A DNA stretch of 22,740 nt, taken from positions 1 through 22,740 of IMG/VR virus record IMGVR_UViG_3300032265_002984; one strand, 5' to 3'. The first letter of the stretch is position 1; each line of letters opens with the position of its first letter. This stretch comes from a virus. The position numbers and the translations under genes were made by a program. The notes under the pieces are model-generated. The model was not told the DNA's origin. It saw only the letters and a list, made by a program, of their open reading frames with translations, and made no database searches. Shown one piece after another: positions 346-22,740 of this stretch.

Positions 346-542
346 CTTTGCACCTCATATCCTTTATTGTTTTCTAAAAATTTATAAGCCCATTCCCTAA
401 ACTTCACTCGGTTTTCACTGGTTTGCTCATCTGTTGGATCCCATACAAAATCCAATATATGCTCGCCAGTGCCGTCCTGCACTTCAATCTTGGTCATATT
501 GCCATCTGAATCGTATACATCTACTGGTATTGCTTTTTTCAT
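342..542 (-). CDS. Hypothetical phage protein, 66 aa
   Basis: Acidic soluble protein with no recognised function. The C-terminal half has the pattern DEQTSENRVKFREWAYKFL, which resembles short unannotated proteins I associate with phage small-gene blocks. An AAGGGAG ribosome site sits 5 bases upstream of ATG. Its start overlaps the stop of the 110-aa gene (ATGA) and its stop overlaps the start of the next gene, so it is translationally coupled on both sides. Confidence 0.7.
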   Translation of the reverse strand: MKKAIPVDVYDSDGNMTKIEVQDGTGEHILDFVWDPTDEQTSENRVKFREWAYKFLENNKGYEVQR

Positions 543-871
543 GTTATCTCCCTTACTTTATGTTGTTTTTCCCGCCAACTGTCTACTTCACCATAATCGC
601 CACGAATCATGCTCATTCGCTCTAGCTTTCTAAACTCGGGCTCAATTGCCCACCATGCTGCAGATGCCTCTAAGTATTCTATCCACTCGTCATTACGCTC
701 AAAAAACGGGTGATTAAACCCTGTTATGTCTACAGTACACACTACCTCAGATAGCGGCACTCGCGAGCCTTTAAGGCGCTTTCCATATGTTCCTATTCGT
801 ACCCTGTCTCTAGCCCTTATAAAGCGATCATACGCCCTTTGTTGCTCTTGTGTTAGGCTAATCAATGTCAT
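539..871 (-). CDS. Conserved phage protein of unknown function, 110 aa
   Basis: A 110-aa protein with a basic N-terminal helix (QRAYDRFIRARDRVR), a central VDITGFNHPFFERNDEW segment and a C-terminal EFRKLERMSMIRGDYG segment. I recognise this arrangement as a recurrent unannotated protein of phage accessory blocks, but no biochemical role is known to me. It contains no membrane segment and no obvious metal site. It overlaps the end of the sigma-factor gene by 14 bases and the start of the 66-aa gene by 4 bases, so the three genes are probably on one transcript. Confidence 0.75.
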   Translation of the reverse strand: MTLISLTQEQQRAYDRFIRARDRVRIGTYGKRLKGSRVPLSEVVCTVDITGFNHPFFERNDEWIEYLEASAAWWAIEPEFRKLERMSMIRGDYGEVDSWREKQHKVREIT

Positions 872-6639: not shown

Positions 6640-6718
6640 ACCCTAGGATACGGCGCGAGCTCAGCGCATAAATAGCATTGTGGCGCGCATCCCCGAGCCC
6701 GCGCATCGCGTACGCGTA

Positions 6719-6735
6719 TGCACCACATTGGTGCA
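6719..6735. promoter_or_regulatory. NtrC-like palindrome 1
   Basis: TGCACCA-CAT-TGGTGCA, perfect 7-base arms. It matches the known NtrC (NRI) enhancer consensus TGCACC-N5-GGTGCA. The 21-base context ATG...CTG is identical to that of site 2. Confidence 0.6.
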
Positions 6736-6760
6736 CTGGCAAACTGGCCGCGCCTACTCA

Positions 6761-6777
6761 TGCACCACATTGGTGCA
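6761..6777. promoter_or_regulatory. NtrC-like palindrome 2
   Basis: TGCACCA-CAT-TGGTGCA, identical to site 1. Its centre is 42 bases from site 1, four DNA helical turns. Confidence 0.6.
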
Positions 6778-6781
6778 CTGC

Positions 6782-6828
6782 CTAAGTAAGTGAGCACTAA
6801 CTAACCTAGTGCTAAGTAAGTGAGTACT
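6782..6828. repeat. CTAAGTAAGTGAG direct repeat around a palindrome
   Basis: CTAAGTAAGTGAGCACT (6782-6798) and CTAAGTAAGTGAGTACT (6812-6828) differ by one base. Between and overlapping them is AGCACTA-ACTAACC-TAGTGCT (6793-6813), a 7-base-arm palindrome. Probably part of the same protein-binding array. Confidence 0.6.
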
Positions 6829-6844
6829 CACACCACTACAGCTG

Positions 6845-6861
6845 TGCACCATATTGGTGCA
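6845..6861. promoter_or_regulatory. NtrC-like palindrome 3
   Basis: TGCACCA-TAT-TGGTGCA, perfect 7-base arms. Its centre lies 84 bases from site 2, eight helical turns. Confidence 0.6.
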
Positions 6862-6894
6862 TTGGCCTAGGTGCTATGCTGCAGCGCAGCAGTG

Positions 6895-6911
6895 TGCACC
6901 ATATTAGTGCA
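6895..6911. promoter_or_regulatory. NtrC-like palindrome 4 (one mismatch)
   Basis: TGCACCA-TAT-TAGTGCA, one mismatch in the right arm. Its centre lies 50 bases from site 3. Confidence 0.55.
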
Positions 6912-6970
6912 TAGGTTAGGGTAAACCCTTAGTGCCGGCTTTTCGATGAGGCAATACCCCAATTTGCAGA

Positions 6971-7049: not shown

Positions 7050-7300
7050 AGAAGTGTGGCAATTGCCAGAGAAGTGCCAGAGAAGTGCCACACTTCTTTT
7101 GACATGATTTCCTTATAAATCAATGACTTAACCCCTCCGTGCCACACTTTCCACTCTTTTTTCATTTTTATTTTTATTTTTAAAAAATAAATAAAATGTA
7201 TAGTGGCGTATCGATTTGGAAAAAACGGCTCAAAGACTGGCAATTGTTTGCAACTCGTTGATTCCATTGGGGTTTGTTCAAAAAGAAGTGTGGCACTTCT
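7050..7300. repeat. Right copy of the GTGTGGCA repeat cassette
   Basis: Three direct 11-base units based on GCCAGAGAAGT/GCCACACTTCT (about 7064-7097) lead into the palindrome AGAAGTG-CCA-CACTTCT (7081-7097). The conserved GTGCCACACTTTCCACTCT block and an A/T tract (about 7160-7198) follow, then AAAGACTGGCAA. The palindrome returns in inverted centre form at 7284-7300 (AGAAGTG-TGG-CACTTCT). Elements from 7081 onward align with window positions 1-180. An origin or repressor region is the best guess. Confidence 0.6.
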
Positions 7301-7350
7301 CTGGCACAAGACTGGCACTAAAATTTTTTTTGTAAAATTTGAGGATTGTG

Positions 7351-7368
7351 CGTATTAGTAAAAGTATG
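7351..7368 (+). promoter_or_regulatory. CGTATTAG element before first rightward gene
   Basis: CGTATTAGTAAAAGTATG. It differs from the element at 13307 by one base and has the ATG at the same place, 8 bases after CGTATTAG. The upstream TAGGGCG half is not present here. Confidence 0.5.
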
Positions 7369-7710
7369 AACAAATACGTATATCAAATATCTGGCGCATT
7401 GGAAAATCCGCCGGGCAAGTTAAAAGGCTTGCGGGTACTGGTATGCGACTTGTACTATTTCGATCAGGTAGATGTGCCCATCCAAATATTGGATAAGGCA
7501 ACGGCTAAGTACCTAGAGTTTCGGCTTAGCATCACTGCCGAATCTTTGAATATTCAAAGACTGCCAGTCGAGATCCAAAACAAAATACGCGTTCCGTTAG
7601 GGAAATGGCTGGACCAATGGGTCCTTGAAAACTTCTATGGCAATACTAGCAACAGAAAAAGTTCTGACTCTGGACTATTGGAAAATGGCGGGGGACATCC
7701 GGGAGGGTGA
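7366..7710 (+). CDS. Hypothetical protein at head of structural module, 114 aa
   Basis: Protein of unknown family. The N-terminal 80 residues (MNKYVYQISGALENPPGKLK, then RVLVCDLYYFDQVDVPIQIL, then a segment reading LDKATAKYLEFRLS) suggest a compact alpha/beta domain. The tail after about residue 90 is Ser/Gly/Asn-rich and overlaps the next gene out of frame by 74 bases. ATG at 7366 is chosen over an upstream TTG because it lies at the conserved distance from CGTATTAG. Position before the terminase would suit a small terminase subunit, but no helix-turn-helix is evident, so this is only a suggestion. Confidence 0.6.
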   Translation: MNKYVYQISGALENPPGKLKGLRVLVCDLYYFDQVDVPIQILDKATAKYLEFRLSITAESLNIQRLPVEIQNKIRVPLGKWLDQWVLENFYGNTSNRKSSDSGLLENGGGHPGG

Positions 7711-8611
7711 TTTTCTATTTAACCGTTTTGGCAAACTAGTCAAAGTCAAACTGGTGCAGCAATCCAGAGCGCTTCATTGTTACGAAGCCCAATTTGCTGA
7801 TGGATTAACCATCGCTGGTGATGCTCATCTTAAGTTACCTGTAGAATCGGAGAACTACCGCAAACAGGTAAGGAAATACAAAGGCACTCGTAAGTTTCGG
7901 CGTCAACCTGAACCCATTACGTTACACACTCTTTTAGAAACACCGCTCACTGGCAGAGAAAACCGCAAAGAGTTTTCCGTTCCGACCACTGGCGCCCTGC
8001 AGTTCCCCCACATTGACTTGCCTGTCCCACCATTCATCTTTGGATTCTGGTTTTTTAACCGCCGCTCAACCGGCAGAATGGTACCGCCACCTGAATTTAG
8101 GGACGTGGTAATAGAAAAACTGCGCGACCAAGGCTATTTGCCAACCAGCAAACGAAAAGACTTTACAACGCAGCCCACCATCCTCGCGCATTTAAAACCA
8201 AACGTCCCCTATCGCATACCGAACAACTACCTACTTTCGTCCGCGACTCAACGAACGCAATTGTTACAGGGAATTTTGCACTCTAAAACCAAGCAGTACA
8301 ACAAACAGACCAATGTGTTTCGGTTTACGCACCGTAAAAAAGAGTTAGTCTCCCAGGTTCAGTATCTTGCCGAGTCTTTGGGTGCGCGAACCGTCATAGA
8401 CCATGACATCTACAAAAACTATTATACCGTGTTTATCAAAACTCGGTTACAATTGACCCATGAGCAAACACCGCGCCCGATTAAAGTACGCCAAGAGTGG
8501 CGGCTAGTGGCGGACGTGTATGAGATACAGCCGCAGGGCTGTGTGCACATTGAAACAGATAACCCCGACACAGGCTTTCTCGTAGGAGAGGGATTTATAC
8601 CATGTCTTTAA
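7637..8611 (+). CDS. Free-standing intein-derived protein (Hint plus LAGLIDADG remnant), 324 aa
   Basis: Seen: block A-like MAGDIREGDFLFNRFGK near residues 17-33, block B-like GLTIAGDAH at 56-64 keeping the His, an endonuclease-like centre with FGFWFFNRRS (135-143) and IPNNYLLSSATQRTQLLQGI (194-213), and block F-like VYEIQ...FLVGEGFIPCL at the C-terminus. In active inteins the first residue is Cys or Ser and the end is His-Asn; here the matching N-terminal residue is Ala5 and the protein ends P-C-L. The two LAGLIDADG catalytic acids are replaced (Asn141 and a His-Ser at 215-216). It should therefore neither splice nor cut. Its stop overlaps the terminase ATG by 10 bases. Inteins in large terminases are well known, so this is probably a relic or a co-opted descendant. 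ATG 7637 is used; a TTG 12 bases upstream is possible. Confidence 0.75.
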   Translation: MAILATEKVLTLDYWKMAGDIREGDFLFNRFGKLVKVKLVQQSRALHCYEAQFADGLTIAGDAHLKLPVESENYRKQVRKYKGTRKFRRQPEPITLHTLLETPLTGRENRKEFSVPTTGALQFPHIDLPVPPFIFGFWFFNRRSTGRMVPPPEFRDVVIEKLRDQGYLPTSKRKDFTTQPTILAHLKPNVPYRIPNNYLLSSATQRTQLLQGILHSKTKQYNKQTNVFRFTHRKKELVSQVQYLAESLGARTVIDHDIYKNYYTVFIKTRLQLTHEQTPRPIKVRQEWRLVADVYEIQPQGCVHIETDNPDTGFLVGEGFIPCL

Positions 8612-10047
8612 CACCTGAAAAAGAAAAGTTTTTAGAAGACTATGTTGCAGCGCGCAAACATTGGCCCAAACAACAGCTTGAAGCGATGGTCTGGCAGACT
8701 AAATGGTCGCTGCAAGCATTACCACATCAACGAGAACCAAAAGATCAAGATTATGACACCTTCCTTATGCTCGCAGGCCGGGGATCTGGTAAGACGCACA
8801 CTGCCAGCCATTGGATTGGCATTCGTGCTTGGAACTATGACAACACCCGCTGGCTCGTCACAGCGCCCACTTCCAATGACATACGAGCAACTTGTTTTGA
8901 AGGAGATAGCGGACTCATTAACATTATCCCCCGCTCCCTTATCCGCGACTACAACAAATCTTTATTTGAAATTACTCTTACCAATGGATCTCTCATCCAA
9001 GGTATTCCTGCTTCCGAACCAGAACGGTACCGTGGAAAGCAGTACCATGGGGCTTGGTTCGACGAGTTGTGTGCGTTTGATTACATCGATGAAGCCTACG
9101 ATGGAGTACAGTTTACCCTCCGTCTTAGGGACCCCAGAATTCCTCGGGTGCAGCAGATTATTACCACCACTCCAAAGCCAAAAGAACTCATCGTCGACCT
9201 TAACGAGGGAAAAGTAGGTGGTGATGTCTATGTAGCTAACGCGTCTTCATACGATAACCGTGCCAATCTGTCAGAAACGTTTTTTAAACAACTTGAAACG
9301 TACGATGGCACCGACATGGGGCGCCAAGAGATCTATGGTGAGATTCTTGACCCTGAGCAGGCAGGTATTATTAAACGTAAACAGTTCCGTATGTGGCCAG
9401 CGAACAAACCAACGCCAACATTGGAGTACGTTATTGCGTCATATGACCCAGCAACTTCGGAAAAAACCACCAATGACCCGACAGCTTGCGAGGTATGGGG
9501 TGTATTTGAGCAACAAGATGCAGGAATGGCGGCAATTTTGCTTGATTGTTGGGATGAACACCTGTCTTACCCCGAATTGCGCCGCAAAGTGATCAATGAT
9601 TTTAAAGAAGTGGTGTATGGATCGGATAATGACTTTGGTAAAGGCAGAAAAGCCGACTTAATCCTCATGGAAGACAAATCAGCGGGTATTTCTCTCATTC
9701 AAGAGCTCCAACAGTCTGGCGTTCCAGTGCAAGGATACAACCCTGGCAGAGCAGATAAGGTGCAGCGACTAAACATTGTGGCTCCTTTAGCATCTAAAGG
9801 CAAGTTATTCATTCCAGAAGACGCAGAAAACAAGGGCGAGTTTGCCAGCTGGTCAAAACGCTTCTTACGTCAGCTGTGTTCGTTTCCTGAAGCTGGGGGG
9901 CATGATGACTATGTGGATGCTTTTTCTCAAGCCATGCGTATTTTGCGTGATTCGGGATGGATTTTGCTAGATCCACTGCCAGCGCGTGATTATGACTACG
10001 CTGATGATGACTCACGCAAACGTTTTGCTAATCCTTATGCACAATAG
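8602..10047 (+). CDS. terL: Terminase large subunit, 481 aa
   Basis: Packaging motor ATPase and nuclease that cuts and pumps concatemeric phage DNA into proheads through the portal. Seen: Walker A AGRGSGKT (58-65), a WLVTAPTSND segment (84-93), Walker B AWFDE (151-155), motif III-like IITTTPKP (186-193), and the RNase H-like nuclease residues in IASYDPATS (Asp282), LMEDKSAG (Asp358) and GGHDDYVDA (432-440). The length is normal for the family and no intein interrupts it. The start overlaps the upstream intein-like gene by 10 bases. A late-promoter-like element begins within its stop codon, so downstream genes can be transcribed separately. Confidence 0.95.
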   Translation: MSLTPEKEKFLEDYVAARKHWPKQQLEAMVWQTKWSLQALPHQREPKDQDYDTFLMLAGRGSGKTHTASHWIGIRAWNYDNTRWLVTAPTSNDIRATCFEGDSGLINIIPRSLIRDYNKSLFEITLTNGSLIQGIPASEPERYRGKQYHGAWFDELCAFDYIDEAYDGVQFTLRLRDPRIPRVQQIITTTPKPKELIVDLNEGKVGGDVYVANASSYDNRANLSETFFKQLETYDGTDMGRQEIYGEILDPEQAGIIKRKQFRMWPANKPTPTLEYVIASYDPATSEKTTNDPTACEVWGVFEQQDAGMAAILLDCWDEHLSYPELRRKVINDFKEVVYGSDNDFGKGRKADLILMEDKSAGISLIQELQQSGVPVQGYNPGRADKVQRLNIVAPLASKGKLFIPEDAENKGEFASWSKRFLRQLCSFPEAGGHDDYVDAFSQAMRILRDSGWILLDPLPARDYDYADDDSRKRFANPYAQ

Positions 10048-10087
10048 GGCGGAAACCCCCCAAATAGCGTATTAGTTAAAATAAGGA
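10045..10087 (+). promoter_or_regulatory. Bipartite late-promoter-like element A (before portal)
   Basis: TAGGGCG (10045-10051), 16 bases, then CGTATTAGTTAAAATAAGGA (10068-10087). The same arrangement occurs at 13284 and 17243. The spacer GAAACCCCCCAAATAG can partly pair with the GGGCGG. Confidence 0.65.
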
Positions 10088-10101
10088 CGTCCCCAATTCT
10101 C

Positions 10102-10123
10102 GTTGTTGCCATGTGGCAGCAAC
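10102..10123 (+). promoter_or_regulatory. Hairpin in portal mRNA leader
   Basis: GTTGTTGCC / GGCAGCAAC with an ATGT loop, a 9-pair stem containing one G-U pair. It lies 17 bases before the portal ATG, and the alternative GTG start would lie inside the loop. Confidence 0.55.
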
Positions 10124-10139
10124 TTCAAATATAAAATCT

Positions 10140-13058
10140 ATGGCCAATCCACAATTACCGATTCAAATGGGCAATAACTTGCCTGGTCTTACCGACCAAG
10201 AAGAAGATTTAGCAGAAGCAATGGATCAAGACGCTGAAATGAAAGCGTACGAAGCTGAGCTCGACCTAGATCCGCAAGAAGTTGAAGAAGAAGTTATTGA
10301 GCTTGAAGATGGTTCTGTAGTAATCAACTACAAAGAAAAAGAAAGCCCGTTAAAAAATCCAGAATTTTATTCGAACTTGGCTGAAGAGTTAGACGACGGC
10401 ATTTTACAAGAATTAGCCGTTGAGTATTTAGATTACATCGACGTTGATAAAGAAGCGCGTTCACAAAGAGACAAGCAGTATGAAGAAGGATTACGTAGGA
10501 CAGGACTTGGCAAAGATGCACCTGGTGGCGCAACGTTTGATGGCGCGTCTAAAGTTGTTCATCCAGTTATGGCAGAAGCCTGCGTAGATTTTGCTGCGTC
10601 TGCAACAAAAGAACTCTTGCCATCTGATGGCATTGTTAAATCAAACATTAAAGGTGTAGATAATCGCCTTAAAGTAGAAGTAGCTGATCGTAAAGTCGAT
10701 TTTCTTAACTGGCAATTGACAGATCAAATTCCTGAGTACCGCGATGAGATGGAGCAGTTGCTTACTCAGTTGCCGCTTGGTGGATCACAGTTTCTTAAAT
10801 GGCGTTGGGATGATGAACAATTTCGTCCAACTTGCGAATGGGTTCCAATTGATAACATCATTCTCCCATATTCCACAACCAACTTCTACACATCACAGCG
10901 TGTAGCAGAACAACAAGACATTACAGAAGACACGTACGAACGCCGCATTGATGCTGGCTTGTATCGCGACTTAGAAAGCGCGCAGTATACTTCTGACGCT
11001 CCTCTTACAGATCAAACTAAATCACAATCTGCAAACGATAAGATTGAAGGTAAATCCGAGCCATCTAAAAATATTGATGGATTGCGCCGTATTTACGAAA
11101 TCACTTGTTACATGCGTTTGGACGACGATCCCCTCACCGAAGGAAGACGCGCTCCTTACATTTTAACAATTGATGAGTCCAGCAGCAAAGTGTTGGCCTT
11201 ATATCGTAACTGGGAATCAGGCGATGAAAAACTTGAGAAGTTGGATTGGTATGTTGAATTCAAGTTCATTCCTTGGCGCGGTGCTTACGCTATTGGTTTA
11301 CCCCAGCTTATTGGTGGTCTGTCTGCTGCTCTTACAGGTTCTTTACGTGCTTTGTTGGATGCAGCTCATATTAACAACAGCCAGACAATGCTTAAGCTCA
11401 AAACTGGACGCGTTAGTGGCCAGTCTGACAGGATCGAACCAACCCAAGTAATCGAAGTAGAAGCTGGCCCTGGTGTAACTGACATTCGTCAGATTGCAAT
11501 GCCAATGCCGTTCAACCCACCGTCATCTGTTCTTTTTGACTTGCTTGGTTGGTTAACAGCTGCAGCTAAAGGTGTTGTTACTACTTCTGAAGAGAAAATC
11601 CAAGATGCTAACAGCAACATGCCAGTTGGCACAACCCAAGCTCTGATTGAGCAGGGTGCTAAAGTATTCTCATCCATTCACGCTCGCCTGCACCGCAGCC
11701 AAGCTAAGTCTCTTAAAATTATTTCCCGTCTCAACCATTGGTATTTGGAAGAGATGGACAATCAGTCTGGTTCTGAAGTTCAAGTACGCGACTTTGCATA
11801 CAACAACGACGTTCGTCCAGTTTCTGATCCTAACATTTTTTCTGAAACACAACGCTTAGCTCAAAACCAAGCGTTGTTACAGATGGCTTCTACTGCGCAG
11901 CCAGGCATGTTTGACATGCGCTCAATTTACAAACGTATTCTTAAACAATTAAAAGTTCCAGATGCAGAAGAGATTTTACCAAACCCAATGGGTGCAAACG
12001 AATCCAATCCTGCGTTAGAAAACGTTTCAATGACTATGGGCAAACCAGCAGCGGCTTACCCAGATCAAGATCACATTGCGCATATTCAGATTCATTTGGA
12101 ATATGCAAACAATCCAGCGTATGGCGGCAACCCAGTAATCGGGCCAACATTTGCGCCACAAGCATTACAACACATTAAACAGCATTTAACACTGCATTAC
12201 TTGCAACAAATGCGTGGCATGGTTTCTGGTGCGTCTGGCGGCAAAGATGTTCTTGAGTTACATCAAGAAAAGCCATTAGACAAAAAAGCACAACAAGCAT
12301 TGGCATTAGCTTCTCAAGTTGTCAACAAAGATTCACAGCAAGAATTAGGACAATACGTACAGCAAATTCAAGCATTGGCTCAGAAAGTTCAGCAAGCTCA
12401 ACAACAGCAGTCTCAAAATGCTGCAATGAATGATCCTACTGCCGCCGCAATTGTTAAAACACAAATGGCCGAAACAGAACGTAAAACTGCAGAGTCCCAA
12501 GCTAGAATGCAAGCAGAACTTCAATCTTCACAACAAGACTACCAGATTAAAGTGGCTGAGTTGCAAGCTAAAGTTCAAGAGTTGCAAGCTAAATATTCTA
12601 CACAAACCAACATTGATAACCAGCGCAATGCAACAGATATTGCTATGGCAAACATCAATAATGCGGCTAAAGAGCGTGTTGCTCAAATTAATGCCGGCGT
12701 TCAAATGGATCAGCAACAGCAACAATTGGAACATGAACAAACCATTTCCGCAATGGATGCTATTCAAGCAGCTGACGCGGACATTCGCCAACATGGTTTA
12801 GCAGTTCAACAACAAGCCTTCCAAGCACAAGCTGATCAAGTGGCACAGCAAGTAGCACAACAAAAAGAAGCGGCATTGGCTCAACAGCAGCATGAGCAAC
12901 AAGTTCAACAACAAGGCATGCAAGCCCAAAACCAAGCCATGCAGTCTGGCTTAGATCACGGTCAAGCGTTGCAACAAAACGATCAACAACATCAACAAGC
13001 ATTAGAACAACAAGCAGCAGCACCACAACCAACAACACCCCCAACAGGAGCGCTATAA
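10140..13058 (+). CDS. Portal protein with long Gln-rich coiled tail, 972 aa
   Basis: Forms the dodecameric ring at one capsid vertex through which terminase packages DNA. Identification rests on position directly after terL and on segments such as SKVVHPVMAEACVDFAASAT and KELLPSDGIVK, typical of large P22-like portals. The core spans about residues 60-680. From about 690 to the end the protein is long helices very rich in Gln and Ala (QQAQQQQSQNAAM, KVAELQAKVQELQAKYS, many QQ runs), ending PQPTTPPTGAL. P22-type portals carry a C-terminal helical barrel, and this could be an enlarged equivalent (inference). ATG 10140 is chosen over a GTG at 10113 that sits in a hairpin; neither has a good ribosome site. 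The stop overlaps the next gene's start (TAATG). Confidence 0.85.
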   Translation: MANPQLPIQMGNNLPGLTDQEEDLAEAMDQDAEMKAYEAELDLDPQEVEEEVIELEDGSVVINYKEKESPLKNPEFYSNLAEELDDGILQELAVEYLDYIDVDKEARSQRDKQYEEGLRRTGLGKDAPGGATFDGASKVVHPVMAEACVDFAASATKELLPSDGIVKSNIKGVDNRLKVEVADRKVDFLNWQLTDQIPEYRDEMEQLLTQLPLGGSQFLKWRWDDEQFRPTCEWVPIDNIILPYSTTNFYTSQRVAEQQDITEDTYERRIDAGLYRDLESAQYTSDAPLTDQTKSQSANDKIEGKSEPSKNIDGLRRIYEITCYMRLDDDPLTEGRRAPYILTIDESSSKVLALYRNWESGDEKLEKLDWYVEFKFIPWRGAYAIGLPQLIGGLSAALTGSLRALLDAAHINNSQTMLKLKTGRVSGQSDRIEPTQVIEVEAGPGVTDIRQIAMPMPFNPPSSVLFDLLGWLTAAAKGVVTTSEEKIQDANSNMPVGTTQALIEQGAKVFSSIHARLHRSQAKSLKIISRLNHWYLEEMDNQSGSEVQVRDFAYNNDVRPVSDPNIFSETQRLAQNQALLQMASTAQPGMFDMRSIYKRILKQLKVPDAEEILPNPMGANESNPALENVSMTMGKPAAAYPDQDHIAHIQIHLEYANNPAYGGNPVIGPTFAPQALQHIKQHLTLHYLQQMRGMVSGASGGKDVLELHQEKPLDKKAQQALALASQVVNKDSQQELGQYVQQIQALAQKVQQAQQQQSQNAAMNDPTAAAIVKTQMAETERKTAESQARMQAELQSSQQDYQIKVAELQAKVQELQAKYSTQTNIDNQRNATDIAMANINNAAKERVAQINAGVQMDQQQQQLEHEQTISAMDAIQAADADIRQHGLAVQQQAFQAQADQVAQQVAQQKEAALAQQQHEQQVQQQGMQAQNQAMQSGLDHGQALQQNDQQHQQALEQQAAAPQPTTPPTGAL

Positions 13059-13279
13059 TGGCAAACGACAACAATCAAAAAGGCTTTCGCCAAGTTTATC
13101 AAGAAACTGGTAAATTATCATCTGGCGGCGGCCCTAAGCAAGACATCGATTCGGGTCCTGCAGGTTCACATCGCAATAACAACTGGAAAATTGGCGCAGC
13201 GCAATCAAAAATGCGTAATGCTGGCAAAATTGGTCCAGGTAAAAACCTTAAAGACATCGACGGCGGCAATTTCTATTAA
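13058..13279 (+). CDS. Small Gly/Asn-rich protein, 73 aa
   Basis: Hydrophilic, low-complexity protein (MANDNNQKGFRQVYQETGKL, KIGPGKNLKDIDGGNFY) with few hydrophobic residues, probably unstructured. It is coupled to the portal by a one-base overlap and so probably acts in head assembly or is packaged with the portal. A GGAG site in the portal end precedes the ATG. Function unknown. Confidence 0.7.
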   Translation: MANDNNQKGFRQVYQETGKLSSGGGPKQDIDSGPAGSHRNNNWKIGAAQSKMRNAGKIGPGKNLKDIDGGNFY

Positions 13280-13283
13280 TATT

Positions 13284-13322
13284 TAGGGCGGATTTGTCCG
13301 CTTCAACGTATTAGTAAAAATA
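13284..13322 (+). promoter_or_regulatory. Bipartite late-promoter-like element B
   Basis: TAGGGCG (13284-13290), 16 bases, then CGTATTAGTAAAAATATG (13307-13324). The ATG of the next gene overlaps the element. GCGGA-TTTG-TCCGC (13288-13301) can form a small hairpin within it. Confidence 0.65.
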
Positions 13323-13516
13323 TGAAGGACTTTATCAGCGAAATTATCAGCCGCGTACGCAGCGAGATACAGAACCAAGCGGACACCATCACCGCGGGTT
13401 CAAACATCAATTCATTTGATGATTATAGGCAATACGTAGGTAAAATCGAGGGACTAAAATTATCTCTTGCAATTATTGACGAAATTTTGACGGAAAACAG
13501 TGAAGAAGACCTGTAA
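13322..13516 (+). CDS. Small helical phage protein, 64 aa
   Basis: Predicted two-helix protein (MKDFISEIISRVRSEIQNQA, then FDDYRQYVGKIEGLKLSLAI, acidic end). Short proteins with an 'xxYRxxxGxIxGL' pattern occur next to portal and scaffold genes of many phages with no known role. There is no ribosome site: the ATG lies 8 bases after CGTATTAG, so if that is the -10 element the mRNA would be nearly leaderless. Confidence 0.72.
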   Translation: MKDFISEIISRVRSEIQNQADTITAGSNINSFDDYRQYVGKIEGLKLSLAIIDEILTENSEEDL

Positions 13517-13537
13517 AGGTTAAGAAAGGATTGCCGC

Positions 13538-13978
13538 ATGGCAATTGATTTTAAGCAACAAGACGAACCAGATTTACGATCAGAGCAAGAATGCTTTCCA
13601 GACGTAGATCCCGGTGTAGAAATTCTGGGAGATCGAGTATTGGTGCAACTGCGCCGAGAAAAGGTAACCAGTAAAGGCGGAATCATCCTTGTGGATGAAA
13701 CCAGACAGACCTTACGTTTTAACGAAACAGTAGCAAAAGTAATTGGTATTGGCCCCCTGGCGTATAAAAGCCCAGATGACCTAACACCTTGGCCAGAAGG
13801 CCCTTGGTGCAATACTGGTGACTTAGTTCGTACAATTAAGTACGGCGGCGACCGTTTTGTTGTGCAACCTGACGATGAAGGCGCACCTGTAGTGTTTATT
13901 ACACTCCAAGCGCGTGAAGTGATCTCTAAGATCAAATCATTTGAAGCAGCGCAAAAAATGAAAGCGTTTGTAGATTAA
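13538..13978 (+). CDS. GroES-like co-chaperonin, 146 aa
   Basis: Predicted 10-kDa chaperonin that caps host GroEL, as T4 gp31 does to fold its capsid protein. Seen: GDRVLVQLRREKVTSKGGII at 31-50, where VTSKGGIIL fits the GroEL-binding mobile loop; then ETVAKVIGIGP (63-73), TGDLVRTIKYGGDRFVV (93-109) and a final VFITLQAREVISKI. These match the GroES beta-barrel order, with about 30 extra residues at the N-terminus and an insertion around 74-92. AAGGA lies upstream. Location between portal and scaffold suggests it assists head-protein folding. Confidence 0.85.
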   Translation: MAIDFKQQDEPDLRSEQECFPDVDPGVEILGDRVLVQLRREKVTSKGGIILVDETRQTLRFNETVAKVIGIGPLAYKSPDDLTPWPEGPWCNTGDLVRTIKYGGDRFVVQPDDEGAPVVFITLQAREVISKIKSFEAAQKMKAFVD

Positions 13979-13998
13979 CTTTTGTAGAAAAGACGAAA

Positions 13999-14979
13999 AT
14001 GGCAGACAATGAAAAGAAAGATGTTCCTATCAAGGAACAAGCAGATGGCTCAGTTTTAGCCAAAGTAGAAATGCCGGATGAAGTAGAAGATCCAGGCGAA
14101 GTTGTTGCAGTCGAAGCGCCTGATGACCGAACTGATGAAGAACGGGAAGAAGATGAAGCTGAAGACGAAGACAACTTTGATGAGTCAGAAGATGAACGCG
14201 AAAGGATTCGTGAAGCTAGGCGTGAAGAGCGCAGGCTAAAAAAAGATCTTAAAAAACAGCGTGATTTCTCAGCTCAAAACAAAATTAAAATGCTTGAGCG
14301 TAATAACGAAGAGTTAGCTAAGCGTTTGGCCGCAGTAGAAAATACTGCAGTATCTTACCAGTTTGCACAGATTGACAAGTCTATTGAAGACGAAGCAACC
14401 CGTGTTGAATATGCTAAGATGAAAATGGTCCAAGCAGCTCAGAACAACGACGCAGCCGCTCAAATGGATTATTTGGAGCAGTTGACAGACGCTAAACAAC
14501 GTCTCAACCAAGCTCAGCATTACAAGAAACAACAGCTTGAGCAAGCTAAGACTCCAGCACAAAACGTGCCTAATGAGTCTACCACTAGAGTTCAAAGACA
14601 AGCTGAAAGTTGGCTTAAAAAGAACGCTTGGTATGATCCACAAGCTCGAGACACAGATAGTAGAATTGCCAAAGTAATTGACCAAGAACTCGCAGCCGAT
14701 GGTTGGGATCCAGCAGATTCTGAATATTGGGAAGAGTTAGACAGTCGTTTATCGTCTCGTTTACCACACAGATATACTTCCAAAGGAGGCTCTGTGAAAC
14801 GAGCAAATCCATCATCATCTAGCAGAGTTTCAAATGCTGGTGCGTCAAAACCCGGAACCATCACGCTTTCACGTGATCGTGTTAATGCAATTAAAGATGC
14901 AGGCGCTTGGGATGATGTAGAAAAACGAAATAAAATGATCCGCGCATATGCGTCGTACGATCGTGAAAATAAAGGTTAA
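13999..14979 (+). CDS. Probable scaffold protein, 326 aa
   Basis: Very acidic N-terminus (residues 24-66, mainly Asp/Glu), then a long coiled coil (about 62-118: ERERIREARREERRLKKDLK and onward), further helices to about 190, and a basic, Ser-rich C-terminal third with SKGGSVKRANPSSSS and TLSRDRVNAIKDAGAWDD. An acidic coiled-coil protein shortly upstream of the major capsid gene is the standard profile of an internal scaffold that directs procapsid assembly and then leaves. No protease motif was seen. Sequence recognition is weak; the assignment depends on profile and position. Confidence 0.72.
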   Translation: MADNEKKDVPIKEQADGSVLAKVEMPDEVEDPGEVVAVEAPDDRTDEEREEDEAEDEDNFDESEDERERIREARREERRLKKDLKKQRDFSAQNKIKMLERNNEELAKRLAAVENTAVSYQFAQIDKSIEDEATRVEYAKMKMVQAAQNNDAAAQMDYLEQLTDAKQRLNQAQHYKKQQLEQAKTPAQNVPNESTTRVQRQAESWLKKNAWYDPQARDTDSRIAKVIDQELAADGWDPADSEYWEELDSRLSSRLPHRYTSKGGSVKRANPSSSSRVSNAGASKPGTITLSRDRVNAIKDAGAWDDVEKRNKMIRAYASYDRENKG

Positions 14980-14984
14980 TTAAA

Positions 14985-15539
14985 ATGGCAAATACAAGAA
15001 TTAAACGCGATTTAGAAGACAGATTGTCAGATCGTGTACAAGAAACTAAAGAACGGATCGCAGCAGAAGATCCTAACAATAAAACCAAGCGCGAACGTGC
15101 AGAAGCGTTCAGAGATAAATGGCAAAATAGCGCATTGCCTGATTTGCCGGGTGGTATCATACCTGGCTTTCACTTGTGTTGGTTATCCACCACAAACAAT
15201 TATGACAGTATCGACAAACGCGTAGCGTTGGGTTATGAACCAGTTAAAGCCTCGGAATTAGGTAAAGGCTTTGAAGGACTAGGTAAAATGAGCTCGGGCA
15301 AGTTTGAGGGCTGTGTTAGCTGTAACGAGATGGTTCTCTTTAAGTTACCAGAAGAAATCTATCAAGAAGTGATGCGCATGATGCACCTAGAGGATCCGCT
15401 AGATCATCAACGCAACATTACCGCCGCTGTGCGTAATACTGCACAAGAAGGTAAGGGCGGACGCTCAGTTCTTGAAGGTGGAGTTTTGGAAATGGAAAAA
15501 GAGGCCGCAAAGGCGAATAGTAATATCCGCTTCGATTAA
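14985..15539 (+). CDS. Conserved structural-module protein, 184 aa
   Basis: Basic helical N-terminus (NTRIKRDLEDRLSDRVQETK), then IIPGFHLCWLSTTNNYDSID and LGYEPVKASEL, a Cys pair in GCVSCNE (108-114 region), and a C-terminal helical segment. I recognise the 'PGFHLCWLSTTN ... LGYEPVK' core from head modules of other phages; it is uncharacterised and could be a head-completion or inner-head protein. It begins 5 bases after the scaffold gene, so the two are likely co-translated. Confidence 0.68.
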   Translation: MANTRIKRDLEDRLSDRVQETKERIAAEDPNNKTKRERAEAFRDKWQNSALPDLPGGIIPGFHLCWLSTTNNYDSIDKRVALGYEPVKASELGKGFEGLGKMSSGKFEGCVSCNEMVLFKLPEEIYQEVMRMMHLEDPLDHQRNITAAVRNTAQEGKGGRSVLEGGVLEMEKEAAKANSNIRFD

Positions 15540-15570
15540 CATTCTTCAAAAAACAAAGGATTAATAATAC

Positions 15571-16233
15571 ATGTCTACGACATATCTTCCCTTTGGTATG
15601 AAGCCTGCCTACCACCCAAGTGGTCTGGATCGTGCAACTCAGTTTGTCGGTACAAACAGCTTCCAAGCTGCTACTGATAATACTTACAATGCACCTTACG
15701 GTCTCACAACTGGTCAGTCTTTTTACCAATATCAACCAGTAGCAATCAACTCATCGGGTCAATTGATCCCTGCTCCTACATTAGCCGCAACTGGCCGTAT
15801 GTACGGTGTATTTGATGGTGTTGAGTTTACCGACTCACAAGGTCGTCGTTCAGTAGCTAAATGGGCTTCTAAAACCACTCTTGATGCTTCTACACAAATC
15901 ATTTTCTGGCTCTTTACAGATCCTGAGTTGGTTTACGAAGCTCAGTGCAATGGTTCAGTTGCAACTTCAGCAATGGGTCGCGATTATGACTTTGACGCAA
16001 CAAACAACGCAACAGTAGGTCAGTCTATCGGCAACGGTGGCGCTGGCTTCTCCCAAACAGCTTTGGCCGCATCACCAGTTTCTGCTGGCGCACAAGGTCA
16101 AGTTAAAGTTGTTGGTTTGGGTCGCGAAGTAGCATTCCCAACAGGCCAAACAAACGCCTGGGCAGATACCTACACAATCGTCCAAGTAAAAATCGCCAAT
16201 AGCCAAACAGTCGCTCCTGCGATCTCGGTTTAA
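15571..16233 (+). CDS. Putative virion protein beside major capsid gene, 220 aa
   Basis: Begins TTYLPFGMKPAYHPSGLDRA and is beta-rich with many Gly, Ala, Thr and Ser. It includes YGVFDGVEFTDSQGRRSVAK and VKVVGLGREVAF. Proteins starting 'xxGxxPxYHPSG' are commonly found just before the major capsid gene in aquatic phages and are probably capsid-associated or decoration proteins. AAGGA lies upstream. Role inferred from context. Confidence 0.7.
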   Translation: MSTTYLPFGMKPAYHPSGLDRATQFVGTNSFQAATDNTYNAPYGLTTGQSFYQYQPVAINSSGQLIPAPTLAATGRMYGVFDGVEFTDSQGRRSVAKWASKTTLDASTQIIFWLFTDPELVYEAQCNGSVATSAMGRDYDFDATNNATVGQSIGNGGAGFSQTALAASPVSAGAQGQVKVVGLGREVAFPTGQTNAWADTYTIVQVKIANSQTVAPAISV

Positions 16234-16260
16234 TTAACAACGAAAGAAAGGTAATAAGCA

Positions 16261-17178
16261 ATGGCAACTCCAATGCGTAGTACGGACTTTCGTGCGGTAG
16301 TCGAACCGATTATCAACGAAGTCTTTGACGGTGTTTACGAACAACGTGCTGACGAGTGGAAAGGGTTTGTTGAACAGATCCAAGGTATTCCACGTAACTA
16401 TCACGAAGAAGTAATGCTCTTCGGTATGAATGCTGCACCTGCCATGCCTGACGGTACTCCCGTTAGCTATGACCAAGGTGGTACATTGTACATCACCCGT
16501 TTCATCTACCAAATCTATGGCTTGGCTTATGCCTTGACCAAAGTTTTGATGGAAGACGGCGATCACATCCGTATCGGTAGCACCTTCGCTAAACATTTAG
16601 CTCAGTCTATGATTGAGACTAAGGAAACTTTGTGTGCTAACCTGTTGAACTTTGCGTTTACAGCCGGCTACACAGGTGGCGATGGCGTAACTTTGATTAA
16701 TACAGCCCACCCAATTGCTAATGGTCAAACATTTAGCAATAAGCTGTCTACAGCTGCTTCTTTGAGCCAAACTTCTGTTGAACAGATTTTGATTCAAATC
16801 CGTGGCGCTATTGACAACAATGGTAAGCGTATTCGTCTAAAAGCTGAGCAGTTAGTTGTTCCTCCAGCACTCGAGTTCCAATCAGAAGTAATTCTGAAAT
16901 CGGTTCTCCGTTCTGGTACAGCTGACAATGATTTGAACCCTATCAAATCAACAGGTATGTTGCCAAAAGGCACACACGTGGTAACACGTTTGTCCTCAAG
17001 CAAAGCCTGGTTTGTTCAGACTGATGCAGAAAATGGTCTCATGCTCGTAATGCGTCGTCCTATGGAAAAATCCATGGAAGGTGATTTCGAAACTGATTCT
17101 ATGCGTTATAAGGCTACTGAGCGTTATGCTACAGGTTGGCACGATGCGCGTAACCTTTTCGGTACTCAAGGCGTTTAA
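16261..17178 (+). CDS. Major capsid protein (HK97-fold), 305 aa
   Basis: Shell-forming protein. Seen: an N-terminal helix (TDFRAVVEPIINEVFDGVYE), a central ETKETLCANLLNFAFTAGYT helix followed by a long loop, KAEQLVVPPALEFQSEVILK which resembles the P-domain segment of Mu-type/HK97-fold capsids, and a C-terminal ERYATGWHDARNLFGTQGV end. The length of about 300 residues is normal and there is no attached scaffold or protease domain. GAAAGG lies before the ATG. A strong terminator follows directly, consistent with a highly expressed last gene of the transcript. Confidence 0.85.
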   Translation: MATPMRSTDFRAVVEPIINEVFDGVYEQRADEWKGFVEQIQGIPRNYHEEVMLFGMNAAPAMPDGTPVSYDQGGTLYITRFIYQIYGLAYALTKVLMEDGDHIRIGSTFAKHLAQSMIETKETLCANLLNFAFTAGYTGGDGVTLINTAHPIANGQTFSNKLSTAASLSQTSVEQILIQIRGAIDNNGKRIRLKAEQLVVPPALEFQSEVILKSVLRSGTADNDLNPIKSTGMLPKGTHVVTRLSSSKAWFVQTDAENGLMLVMRRPMEKSMEGDFETDSMRYKATERYATGWHDARNLFGTQGV

Positions 17179-17206
17179 TCAAAAACTACCAAAAGTAGTG
17201 TATTTG

Positions 17207-17236
17207 AACCCCAGGTATAAAACCCTGGGGTTTTTT
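17207..17236 (+). terminator. Rho-independent terminator after capsid gene
   Basis: Perfect 9-base-pair stem AACCCCAGG / CCTGGGGTT with an 8-base loop, followed by a T-run (17231-17236). It separates the capsid transcript from the next promoter-like element, which begins 7 bases later. Confidence 0.88.
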
Positions 17237-17242
17237 ACTTTT

Positions 17243-17285
17243 TAGGGCGCATTTTACCTAGTTTGCGTATTAGTTAAAATAAGGA
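17243..17285 (+). promoter_or_regulatory. Bipartite late-promoter-like element C
   Basis: TAGGGCG (17243-17249), 16 bases, then CGTATTAGTTAAAATAAGGA (17266-17285), identical in its downstream 20 bases to element A. Its place just after a terminator is where a promoter is needed. Confidence 0.72.
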
Positions 17286-17287
17286 AG

Positions 17288-17346
17288 ATAATCCCACTCT
17301 GACCGCCGACGCTTCCCGGTGAGACGACTTAGAGACAGTTTGGGAT
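17288..17346 (+). promoter_or_regulatory. Folded 5' leader of post-capsid operon
   Basis: The 85-base leader between element C and the next ATG is G+C-rich. ATCCCA (17290) can pair with TGGGAT (17340) and CTCT with AGAG inside, enclosing a shorter CCG/CGG stem. It may stabilise the mRNA or control translation. Pairing was found by eye only. Confidence 0.4.
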
Positions 17347-17370
17347 ACCCACTAAGATAAGGAATTAAAC

Positions 17371-18871: not shown

Positions 18872-21800
18872 ATGTCAGATCAGCCGATAACTAGACTACC
18901 GATTGCTACAACCCTAACAGGTGACGAGCAAACGGTAGTTGTACAACGTGGTGTTACAAAACAAGCATCTGTCTCTCAGATCGCTAACGCTGCCTCGCCT
19001 GGCAAACTCATTACCAATATTATTTATAACCCGGTCACGGGCTATTTAACAATTTACTACAGCGATGGAACAACGCAAGTTGTTGGTCCTGTCTCTGGCT
19101 GGTCTGGTTACTCTGGCCTATCTGGTTACAGTGGTATTTCTGGTTATAGTGGCTCTGGTAGATCAGGTTATAGTGGTACTTCTGGATTTTCTGGTATCTC
19201 AGGTTATAGTGGTTCTGGTGTCTCGGGTTATAGTGGTTTCTCTGGATTTTCTGGGTACGTTGGTTTGTCTGGATATTCTGGATATTCAGGCTCCGTTTAC
19301 ATTGGAGCATCACCTCCTCCAACCCCTGGCGCAGGAGCAATGTGGTGGGATGACGTTGCCGGTAAATTAAAGATTTACTACTGTGACATCGACGGTTGCC
19401 AGTGGGTAGACTCAATCATGGGTACAGCTGGTTTCTCCGGCTACTCTGGTATCTCTGGCTACAGTGGTTCTGCTGGTGGTACTGGTATTTCGGGTTACTC
19501 TGGCTACAGCGGATATTCTGGCTACAGCGGTGTAAGTTTAACCCCTGGCGGAGCAAACACAGATGTACAATACAACGACGGCGGCGTCCTCGGTGGCTCA
19601 TCTACATTTACCTATGACGGCACAACAGTACTTGTTCCAACATTAACACTAGCCAATGGCACTATTGTTAAAGATACTAGTGATTATTCTTTAGCAATTG
19701 GAAATTCAGCTGGTCAAACTACTCAAGGTAGTGAAGCCCTTGCAATCGGTCCTTTTGCTGGTCAAACTAATCAAGGTAATGGTGCCACAGCAATTGGCGT
19801 TATAGCTGGACGAATTAATCAAGCTACCGGTGCTACAGCAATTGGTTACGCGGCGGGTTCTGAGAATCAAGGTTTCTACGCTTTTGCTCTTGGTAATAGC
19901 GCCGGTCAAATTAATCAAGGTCAGAATGCCACAGCAATTGGTCAAAATGCTGGTAATGATACTCAAGGTCTTAATGCTACAGCAATTGGCTCTCTAGCTG
20001 GTAATTTTACTCAAGGCACTTCAGCTATAGCAATCGGCCCTTCTGCCGGTTGTTTTACTCAAGGTACTGAAGCCGTTGCAATTGGTGAAAACGCCGGTTT
20101 TATAAGCCAAGGCGGCAGTGCTATAGCAATTGGTCATATAGCTGGCAACGATACTCAAGGCACTTCAGCTGTAGCAATTGGTGATAGTGCTGGTCAAAAT
20201 AACCAAGGCGCTTATGCTATTGCAATTGGTTCTTATGCTGGAGTAAATAATCAGCCAACCGGTTCGATTATATTAAACGCATCTGGTTCCACACTGGATG
20301 GAACCAACGCCGGTCTGTATATTGACCCAGTTCGTAATGATGCTACTGAAACAACTAACGCACTTTACTACAACACCACAAGCAAAGAGCTAACATACGG
20401 TCCTGCAGGCGGCGGCGGTGGCACACCTGGCGGAGCAGATACAAATGTTCAGTACAACAGTAGTGGAGCTTTTGCTGGCTCGTCCACATTTACCTACGAC
20501 GGTACAACAGTACTTGTTCCGACACTAACACTAGCCAATAATGCTATTGTTGCAGACAACGTTGGTAACGGAATACTATTTGGTAAAGGAGCCGGACAAA
20601 TCTCTCAAGGAGGCGGCGCTACTGCGATTGGATACAATGCTGGTTATACTAATCAAGGTCCTTCTGCTATTGCACTTGGTGCTGGTGCTGGTTATGATAC
20701 TCAAGGAGTTACAGCAATTGCAATCGGCGGGGATTCTGGTTCCGTAACACAAGGCGATAATGCCGTAGCAATAGGTAATTCCGCTGGTTATAATCTTCAA
20801 GGAAGTAATGCTGTTGCTATTGGGGAGGTCGCCGGTGAACTTTCTCAAGGCGCTAGCGCTACTGCAATTGGAGCTGGAGCCGCTAATTCTAGCCAAGGTG
20901 CATCTGCGATTGCTATTGGTGATAGTGCAGGTAATCAATACCAAGGTACGTATGCGGTAGCAATTGGCTCCCAAGCCGGTTTATTTAATCAAGGTGCGTC
21001 TGCGATAGCAATTGGTCAAAATGCAGGTATTACTAGCCAACCCGCTAATTCAATTATTGTTAATGCCTCTGGTTCAACGTTAAATGGTTCCAACGCCGGT
21101 TTGTACATCAATCCAGTACGCAATGACACAGGCTCTGTAACCGACGCACTTTATTACAATACCTCAACTAACGAAATAACTTACGGTCCTGCAGGTATGG
21201 GCCCATCTGGCTACTCTGGTTACTCTGGTATTGATGGTGTTTCTGGCTACTCTGGTTACTCTGGTATTGATGGTGTTTCTGGCTACTCTGGTATCTCTGG
21301 CTACTCTGGTATCTCTGGTTACTCTGGTATTGATGGTGTTTCTGGCTACTCTGGTTACTCTGGTATTGATGGTGTTTCTGGCTACTCTGGTTACTCTGGT
21401 ATTGATGGTGTTTCTGGCTACTCTGGCTACTCTGGTCGTTCAGGCTACAGCGGTTCTGGTATCTCTGGTTACTCTGGTATCTCTGGTTACTCTGGTATCT
21501 CTGGTTACTCTGGTTTATCTGGCTACTCTGGTCGTTCAGGCTACAGCGGTTCTGGTATCTCTGGCTACAGCGGTTCTGGTATCTCTGGTTACTCTGGTAT
21601 CTCTGGCTACAGCGGTTCTGGTATCTCTGGTTACTCTGGTATCTCTGGCTACAGCGGTTCTGGTATCTCTGGTTACTCTGGTATCTCTGGCTACTCTGGT
21701 ATCTCTGGCTACTCTGGTATCTCTGGTATCTCTGGCTACAGTGGCGCATCTGGTATCTCTGGCTACAGTGGAATCTCTGGATATAGCGGTATTTCAGGAT

Positions 21801-22740
21801 ACTCAAGCTATAGTGGTATATCTGGCTATTCTGGTATCTCTGGTTACTCGGGCTTTTCTGGAGCGCAAGGTAATTCCTCAACTTATTTCCAATACCGAGC
21901 AGATACAAGCACATTAGCAGGGTACCCAGGAGATGGTAATGTATCTTGGAACAACGCAACACAAACTAGTTCGACAACAGTTAGGGTTTCACACCTAACA
22001 ACAAACAACGTAGACGTTGATGTGTATTTGGCTCTCTTACAACAAACTGAAGAATTTATTATTCAGGATCAAAATAACAGTGCCAATTATCAAACTTGGA
22101 TTATTTCTGGTACACCAACAAATACAAACCCTGGGGCAACAAATAGTTACTGGACGTACCCAGTCACATTAGCTGCTTCTGGTGGTACAGGAACAACAAA
22201 TATACCAAACAACCATCAAGTAATTTTAGCTGTTGTTAATGGTATTTCTGGATTTTCAGGTTTTAGTGGATTTAGTGGTATTTCTGGTTACAGCGGATAT
22301 TCTGGTATATCTGGTTACAGTGGTGCATTAGGCACATCTGGCTACTCTGGTATTTCTGGCTATTCAGGATATTCTGGCATATCTGGTTACAGCGGTTTTG
22401 GCATTTCTGGATATTCAGGATACTCTGGCACTTCTGGATATTCAGGATACTCGGGTATTTCTGGCTACAGTGGCTCTGGTATTTCTGGCTACTCTGGTAT
22501 CTCTGGCTACAGTGGTGCATCTGGTATATCTGGCTACAGTGGTGCATCTGGTATATCTGGCTACAGTGGTGCATCTGGTATTTCTGGCTACAGTGGATAC
22601 TCTGGTATCTCTGGCTACTCTGGTATCTCTGGCTACTCTGGTATCTCTGGATACAGTGGTGCATCTGGTATCTCTGGATACAGTGGTGCATCTGGTATCT
22701 CTGGCTACAGTGGCGCGTCTGGTATCTCTGGCTACAGTGG
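18872..22740 (+). CDS. Giant collagen-like/YadA-like fibre protein, partial (at least 1289 codons)
   Basis: The frame is open from ATG 18872 to the window edge, so the 3' end is missing. Domain order seen: an N-terminal virion-attachment-like part (RLPIATTLTGDEQTVVVQRG, VTKQASVSQIAN), a Gly-X-Y segment (about 19090-19300) with Gly-Tyr-Ser and Gly-Ile-Ser triplets, a small CQWVD-containing insert, another short Gly-X-Y segment, two similar units each made of a VQYN...GSSTFTYDGTTVLVPTLT strand block, a run of 16-residue repeats and an NALYYNTTSKELTYG-like block, then long Gly-X-Y stretches flanking a non-repetitive domain (about 21870-22245). It is probably a trimeric receptor-binding or capsid fibre; a C-terminal chaperone domain would be expected beyond the edge. 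Confidence 0.85.
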   Translation, partial: MSDQPITRLPIATTLTGDEQTVVVQRGVTKQASVSQIANAASPGKLITNIIYNPVTGYLTIYYSDGTTQVVGPVSGWSGYSGLSGYSGISGYSGSGRSGYSGTSGFSGISGYSGSGVSGYSGFSGFSGYVGLSGYSGYSGSVYIGASPPPTPGAGAMWWDDVAGKLKIYYCDIDGCQWVDSIMGTAGFSGYSGISGYSGSAGGTGISGYSGYSGYSGYSGVSLTPGGANTDVQYNDGGVLGGSSTFTYDGTTVLVPTLTLANGTIVKDTSDYSLAIGNSAGQTTQGSEALAIGPFAGQTNQGNGATAIGVIAGRINQATGATAIGYAAGSENQGFYAFALGNSAGQINQGQNATAIGQNAGNDTQGLNATAIGSLAGNFTQGTSAIAIGPSAGCFTQGTEAVAIGENAGFISQGGSAIAIGHIAGNDTQGTSAVAIGDSAGQNNQGAYAIAIGSYAGVNNQPTGSIILNASGSTLDGTNAGLYIDPVRNDATETTNALYYNTTSKELTYGPAGGGGGTPGGADTNVQYNSSGAFAGSSTFTYDGTTVLVPTLTLANNAIVADNVGNGILFGKGAGQISQGGGATAIGYNAGYTNQGPSAIALGAGAGYDTQGVTAIAIGGDSGSVTQGDNAVAIGNSAGYNLQGSNAVAIGEVAGELSQGASATAIGAGAANSSQGASAIAIGDSAGNQYQGTYAVAIGSQAGLFNQGASAIAIGQNAGITSQPANSIIVNASGSTLNGSNAGLYINPVRNDTGSVTDALYYNTSTNEITYGPAGMGPSGYSGYSGIDGVSGYSGYSGIDGVSGYSGISGYSGISGYSGIDGVSGYSGYSGIDGVSGYSGYSGIDGVSGYSGYSGRSGYSGSGISGYSGISGYSGISGYSGLSGYSGRSGYSGSGISGYSGSGISGYSGISGYSGSGISGYSGISGYSGSGISGYSGISGYSGISGYSGISGISGYSGASGISGYSGISGYSGISGYSSYSGISGYSGISGYSGFSGAQGNSSTYFQYRADTSTLAGYPGDGNVSWNNATQTSSTTVRVSHLTTNNVDVDVYLALLQQTEEFIIQDQNNSANYQTWIISGTPTNTNPGATNSYWTYPVTLAASGGTGTTNIPNNHQVILAVVNGISGFSGFSGFSGISGYSGYSGISGYSGALGTSGYSGISGYSGYSGISGYSGFGISGYSGYSGTSGYSGYSGISGYSGSGISGYSGISGYSGASGISGYSGASGISGYSGASGISGYSGYSGISGYSGISGYSGISGYSGASGISGYSGASGISGYSGASGISGYS
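19693..20262 (+). repeat. YadA-like 16-residue repeat block 1 (12 repeats)
   Basis: Twelve 48-base units encode AIGxxAGxxxQGxxAT-type repeats, for example AIGPFAGQTNQGNGAT and AIGDSAGQNNQGAYAI. Spacing and the Ala-Ile-Gly step match the left-handed beta-roll of YadA-type trimeric adhesin heads. The DNA has diverged between repeats while the protein pattern is kept. Confidence 0.75.
20571..21050 (+). repeat. YadA-like 16-residue repeat block 2 (10 repeats)
   Basis: Ten 48-base units of the same type as block 1, such as AIGNSAGYNLQGSNAV and AIGEVAGELSQGASAT, flanked by duplicated strand blocks. It is two repeats shorter than block 1. Confidence 0.75.
21186..21870 (+). repeat. Collagen-like Gly-X-Y tandem repeats
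   Basis: Almost uninterrupted Gly-Tyr-Ser, Gly-Ile-Ser and Gly-Ile-Asp-Gly-Val-Ser triplets. At DNA level, units built from GGCTACTCTGGTATCTCT recur, including a longer unit containing GGTATTGATGGTGTTTCT present five times between about 21228 and 21412. Minus-strand Gln/Ser-rich open frames here are antisense shadows. Confidence 0.85.
21870..22245 (+). other. Non-repetitive fibre domain between collagen stretches
   Basis: About 125 residues inside the fibre gene, beginning after FSGAQG with FQYRADTSTLAGYPGDGNVS and including TTVRVSHLTTNNVDVDVYLA. This pattern (a 'PGxGNxxxNN' strand pair, then 'DVxxYLA') resembles a beta-sandwich domain that often follows Gly-X-Y segments in environmental phage fibres. 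Likely a trimerisation or binding knob. Confidence 0.6.
22245..22740 (+). repeat. Collagen-like Gly-X-Y repeats running off the window
   Basis: Starts GISGFSGFSGFSGIS and continues with SGYSGASGIS units to the last base. The final part repeats an 18-base DNA unit, GGCTACAGTGGTGCATCT with small variants, many times. The reading frame remains open at 22740. Confidence 0.85.

Follow-up and report, generated by a model that had tools for sequence, protein, structure and literature searches.

Phage sigma factors with promoters of their own are already known. Phage SPO1 needs two of its own proteins, gp33 and gp34, at its late promoters, which are bipartite and have a spacer of about 18. The sigma factor gp47 of Salmonella phage 7-11 is a single chain that includes region 4, and its late promoters read GTAAtg-(16)-aCTA (PMC8948821). 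The sigma factor gp36 of phage phiEco32 has no region 4, and its promoters consist of one element without a -35 (PMC8948821). SigO-RsoA of Bacillus subtilis is a two-protein sigma (PMC8103513), and the T4 protein gp33 is structurally unrelated to region 4 and does not bind DNA by itself (PMC7892883).

The repeated motif described here very likely represents a family of promoters in a lake-water phage group with its own sigma factor. Judged from sequence comparison, the bipartite promoter is probably read by a phage two-subunit (split) sigma acting on the host core RNA polymerase. Such a system would share with phage 7-11 a phage sigma, the host RNA polymerase, a bipartite promoter with an interval of 16 as written, and a position before late genes. 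It differs from gp47 in its -35 and -10 sequences and in carrying the putative region 4 on a separate protein, and its consensus does not match GTAAtg-(16)-aCTA. Like phiEco32 gp36, the phage sigma lacks region 4 and would recognize a -10-like element, whereas most sites here carry an invariant -35 element. As in SigO-RsoA, sigma2 and sigma4 functions would lie on separate proteins, here by genes and predicted fold; however, that system is bacterial, and phage subunit 1 has regions 1.2-3. The combination of a phage sigma without region 4 and a second small protein also recalls T4 gp55/gp33/gp45, but the T4 late system works without a -35 element and needs the sliding clamp (PMC7892883), whereas the -35 element is conserved here. 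SPO1 gp33/gp34 is a further parallel, with different promoter sequences.

The window, the whole stretch of DNA that was analyzed, comes from a virus collection; it is a phage record of 22,740 bases and a fragment. Its minus strand carries many small genes plus the sigma factor up to 7318. A 117-base repeat (1-117 and 7081-7197, 79% identity, 7,080 bases apart) flanks this minus-strand block with the sigma gene. Four copies of a palindrome-like 19-mer, RTGCACCAYATTRGTGCAY, lie upstream of the block at 6718-6912 and are possible operator sites. From 7351 onward, the plus strand carries a small gene of the packaging region (7366-7710), the large terminase subunit (8602-10047), the portal protein (10140-13058, its start set by comparison with the MANP... 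start of relatives), small genes that include a conserved 64-aa gene (13322-13516), a GroES-like co-chaperonin gene inside the capsid module (13538-13978), the major capsid protein (16261-17178), head genes, and a large tail-fibre gene (18872-22738) that contains repeats of 48 bases (16 aa) as well as collagen-like repeats of 9 bases.

Three mismatch-free copies of TAGGGCG-N16-CGTATTAGT were found in the window, all on the plus strand (10045-10076, 13284-13315, and 17243-17274); shuffled sequence gave 0.15 matches on average, even with three mismatches permitted. The block CGTATTAGT occurred in perfect form exactly four times, on the plus strand every time, and five bases separated each copy from a T-A step at the predicted -1/+1. 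Sites with the -35 half were designated class A and sites without it class B. The first class A promoter (10045-10083, plus strand) precedes the portal gene, with its -35 TAGGGCG at 10045-10051, its -10 block at 10068-10076, and a predicted +1 at 10083; its initial TAG doubles as the stop codon of the terminase. The second (13284-13322, plus strand; -35 at 13284-13290, -10 block at 13307-13315) begins 5 bases after a stop codon and is leaderless, the predicted +1 being the A of the ATG at 13322. The third (17243-17281, plus strand; -35 at 17243-17249, -10 block at 17266-17274, predicted +1 at 17281) follows the major capsid gene, and a terminator-like hairpin (17206-17233, plus strand) lies just 5' of it. 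The fourth site (7351-7366, plus strand) is a leaderless class B promoter with the -10 block only (7351-7359), and its predicted +1 is the A of the ATG at 7366. The original prediction had reported the two-part motif with its 16-base gap at 10045, 13284, and 17243, the same 20 downstream bases at 10068 and 17266 (CGTATTAGTTAAAATAAGGA), and a lone downstream half at 7351; the copies proved to be exact, the 20 bases identical, and the lone half real. A generic sigma70 promoter scan of the window yielded no excess over shuffles.

The stretch of about 90 bases that would be transcribed first from the third promoter (17281-17370, plus strand) is a structured leader conserved in relatives. Its helices covary, with 7 of the 13 predicted pairs changed on both sides. 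Further complementary segments are GGAAG/CTTCC versus GGTAG/CTACC, and CTTAG/CTAAG versus TCAAG/CTTGA adjoining the ribosome site. No credible Rfam match was obtained for this leader, which looks like a cis-acting leader RNA.

To define the spacing, 108 related loci fetched with capsid and sigma queries were searched with the pattern GGGC[AG]-N-[CT]G[CT]AT[TA]A[GT]T at gaps of 5 to 39, with the T-A step left outside the pattern. A gap of exactly 16 gave 222 matches, corresponding to 164 distinct sequences, and every other gap in that range gave at most two; the reversed-motif control on the related contigs had zero matches at gap 16. The invariant spacing claimed for the window therefore held across the related contigs. 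In the profile of 167 non-redundant sites, T-A-GGGCG occupies -38 to -32 and Y-G-Y-A-T-W-A-K-T occupies -15 to -7, so that the consensus is TAGGGCG-(16)-YGYATWAKT. T was present at -1 in 98% of these sites and A at +1 in 99%, neither of which had been used in selection, and C was absent from -12 to +3 except for 2% at -1. We infer that +1 is the A of this conserved T-A step, 15 bases downstream of the first base of the -10 block. Read as hexamers, the site consists of AGGGCG, 18 bp, YATWAK, 7 bp, and the start. This layout is ordinary sigma70-type geometry with unusual letters. Caution is called for, because experiment (PMC8948821) did not confirm a purely computational promoter prediction for phage 7-11 (PMC4331800); the present promoter call differs from it in resting on many genomes and on a start-site signature outside the search.

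Site usage was counted in 13 whole or near-whole relatives, in which 126 sites were found (74 class A and 52 class B). As the original prediction proposed for the window, the sites stand before genes in the direction of transcription: 113 of the 126 have a same-strand gene downstream, and 87 are intergenic, versus 9.6% for random positions. Their positions relative to gene starts agree as well, with an ATG exactly at +1 in 35 of the 126 sites of both classes in the 13 genomes and in 36 of the 167 class A sites. If transcription begins at the A of the T-A step, several genes would therefore be leaderless. Judged by reading frames, these include two genes in the window, namely the conserved 64-aa gene at 13322, which has no in-frame ATG, GTG, or TTG start upstream, and the gene at 7366. 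For the latter, there is an in-frame TTG at 7339, but it precedes the -10 block and so could not be on the predicted transcript. The motif is not confined to the structural module: in whole relatives the sites occur on both strands and also precede genes beyond that module. For this reason, "late" is only a likely label for these promoters.

Class B sites often lie directly behind a terminator T-run and carry little -35 signal; 18 of 103 were one letter off GGGC[AG] at the right place. A class B site is also found at the start of the region-4-like gene described below. Because class B sites have no -35 element, the requirement for the second subunit cannot be the same at all sites. Some class B sites (L084-L098 and others) also carry, at an almost fixed position upstream, a palindrome of the type TTTCACAWWRTGAAA; they may form a third promoter class under a regulator of its own.

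The phage sigma gene lies on the minus strand of the window. Its ORF spans 858-1553, and the conserved start is codon 43 (MSKNDF), which gives a coding region of 858-1427. Pfam Sigma70_r2 and Sigma70_r3 matched above cut-off, so that regions 2 and 3 are homologous to those of SigA/RpoD. The comparison with SigA (E 1.4e-20 over residues 4-177) aligned the protein to regions 1.2-3.2. No region 4 Pfam match was obtained for the window sigma, and the proteins of this family, of about 183-190 aa, end before region 4. By these alignments, the window protein is a region 1.2-3 sigma-like subunit and not a complete sigma70 factor. A 110-aa ORF (539-871, minus strand) overlaps the 3' end and stop codon of the sigma gene, and of 12 near-complete relatives, 11 carry this family together with the sigma gene. 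Its AlphaFold model had no informative PDB match; the protein is possibly a sigma partner or an anti-sigma.

A candidate for the missing region was found by gene-content comparison. A protein of about 102 aa is common to the sigma-carrying genomes, with its gene present in 12 of 12 near-complete ones. It is absent from the Caulobacter phage GB2A and from MW202545, complete genomes that encode a related capsid protein at 65-66% identity and in which the sigma, the region-4-like gene, and the motif are all absent. The record G027 (59 kb, possibly incomplete) was considered as a further sigma-minus control and rejected, since it has both the region-4-like gene and the motif, in the dialect TGYATTAAT. 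The region-4-like gene lies outside the 22.7-kb window fragment. In relatives it is located about 10 kb from the sigma gene (about 9 kb in G037, on the same strand), a distance that would place the gene of the window phage beyond the left end of the window.

The C-terminal half of this protein matched sigma region 4 in a profile comparison (E 0.0043), and its commonest Pfam match was Sigma70_r4_2 (5 of 11 members, best E 0.009, which is weak). The predicted structure has three confident helices. Its top Foldseek matches were sigma region-4 domains, several of them titled "-35 promoter binding domain", at modest scores (Foldseek E 0.42; VIA Z 7.8, where the tool warns of a possible common arrangement below 8). 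The stretch VTEKYWRYHF, the most conserved among 70 sequences, aligns with the region-4 recognition helix, as would be expected if GGGCG is invariant. No sigma was matched when an HMM of the region-4-like family was run against PDB sequences, and the protein had no match among 50,697 phage records. When whole relatives were searched with PF04545 and PF08281, the matches were mostly weak; the PF08281 matches of G011 and G027 lie in the region-4-like gene, and the sole match over cut-off, PF04545 in G034, lies in a different short ORF. From the modest scores combined with co-occurrence and geometry, the protein is the probable, not proven, sigma region 4 and reader of the -35 element.

In the proposed model, the host core RNA polymerase would be reprogrammed by the phage-encoded two-subunit sigma. 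Subunit 1 (858-1427 in the window, regions 1.2-3) would read the -10 half, which is CGTATTAGT in the window, and subunit 2, the region-4-like protein bound to the polymerase, would read the invariant AGGGCG at -35. The 16-base gap, which puts the hexamers 18 bp apart, would correspond to the constant separation of the two domains on RNA polymerase, transcription would begin at the A of the T-A step, and the second site class would retain the -10 half alone. We infer from sequence that both proteins work together as one sigma, that GGGCG is contacted by the second of them, and that the sites have promoter activity with a given timing. A search of nine relatives for a T7-type polymerase (PF00940) gave no match, while the T7 record used as a positive control was matched.

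The alternative that retains most weight, although unlikely, is that the phage sigma reads the -10 half only and GGGCG is the site of another phage activator, not of sigma region 4, comparable to MotA at T4 middle promoters. Class B sites would fit such an arrangement, since they keep the complete -10 and the start signature without GGGCG, and the sequence matches of the small protein to region 4 are weak. However, GGGCG lies exactly at -36 to -32 with a rigid 16-base gap, as it would for region 4 on RNA polymerase, and every near-complete genome with the sigma also has the region-4-like gene, which both complete sigma-less genomes lack.

The -10 half of the promoter varies among the phages. 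Almost all of them keep to one main -10 dialect throughout the genome, with G014 mixing two, and at least five dialects were found across the group. The phage sigma residues at positions that we take to correspond to E. coli sigma70 437, 440, and 455, and presumably to contact the -12 and extended -10 positions, were aligned without gaps. They are R/E/K with CGTATTAGT, K/R/N with TGCATTAGT, F-or-Y/N-or-Q/N with TGCATAAGT, and R/M/N with TGTATGATT, a covariation that rests on about four independent changes. For the same 22 genomes, the dialects required 4 changes on the sigma tree, the fewest that five states allow, compared to 7 on the terminase tree and 8 on the capsid tree; shuffled dialect labels needed about 12. 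The promoter letters thus follow the sigma gene, and capsid genes are exchanged. The window capsid itself is 98% identical to those of phages that use another dialect and share only 47% identity in the sigma. On these comparisons, we have high confidence in a link between the phage sigma and the -10 half of the promoter.

This covariation bears on a second alternative, in which the -10 half is recognized by the host sigma70 and GGGCG by a phage activator, and the phage sigma serves other promoters. The resemblance of YATWAK to TATAAT and the location of YG near the extended -10 position would suit host recognition. Nevertheless, we regard it as very unlikely, as the dialect tracks the phage sigma tree and not the capsid or terminase, and the commonest dialects make poor sigma70 -10 boxes, with G or A at the last hexamer position. 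Returning to the split sigma, its halves appear, on balance, to evolve apart: the -35 reader and GGGCG would be frozen, the -10 reader and its box would drift together, and many genes would be leaderless.

The repeats are extremely unlikely to act as RNA, whether as hairpins or as signals for processing or translation, or to bind packaging or replication proteins. The upstream half had been noted to take part in small hairpins, and this caution turned out to be minor: a 4-bp hairpin is possible at 106 of the 167 sites versus 95 ± 5 with shuffled spacers, a weak excess, but impossible at the other 61. Neither the start-site signature nor the covariation with sigma would be expected of such elements, and an ATG at +1 means that there is no leader. 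Promoters of the T4 late type, with a TATAAATA-type -10 box, no -35, a gp55-like sigma, a gp33-like coactivator, and a sliding clamp, are scarcely credible, even though the phage sigma has no region 4 and the A/T-rich stretch before the start reads TATAAATA in some dialects, because a conserved -35 element exists at fixed spacing, the A/T stretch is variable while YGYATWAKT and T-A are fixed, a T4-type start would land downstream of the ATG of the leaderless genes, and gp33 is reported to be structurally unrelated to sigma region 4 (PMC7892883). The bipartite phage promoter of the original prediction was upheld as a phage-specific two-part code with fixed spacing, but not in its likening of the A-rich end to T4 late promoters, which have no -35 element; the A-rich stretch corresponds not to the -10 box but to the discriminator that separates the -10 element from the start.

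The phage group is common in lake metagenomes, with 528 capsid relatives in one scan, and a search of a phage collection gave no close cultured member. Phage contigs were found in lake MAG bins of one beta-proteobacterium (two contigs) and one Verrucomicrobia, hints that are too weak to name a host. A full-text literature search, with most subscription papers out of reach, yielded no description of a phage split sigma or of such a motif. A phage sigma divided into a -10 reader and a separate region-4-like -35 reader would therefore, if true, be new as far as the searched literature shows. For this group, the results also provide a map of predicted promoters and start sites. If the drift of the split sigma is true, these phages would hold a natural record of change in the promoter specificity of the sigma2/3 domains. 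With several dialects that track sigma residues, the group also makes the co-evolution of sigma and promoter specificity, a long-standing question, open to direct test by swaps between dialects.
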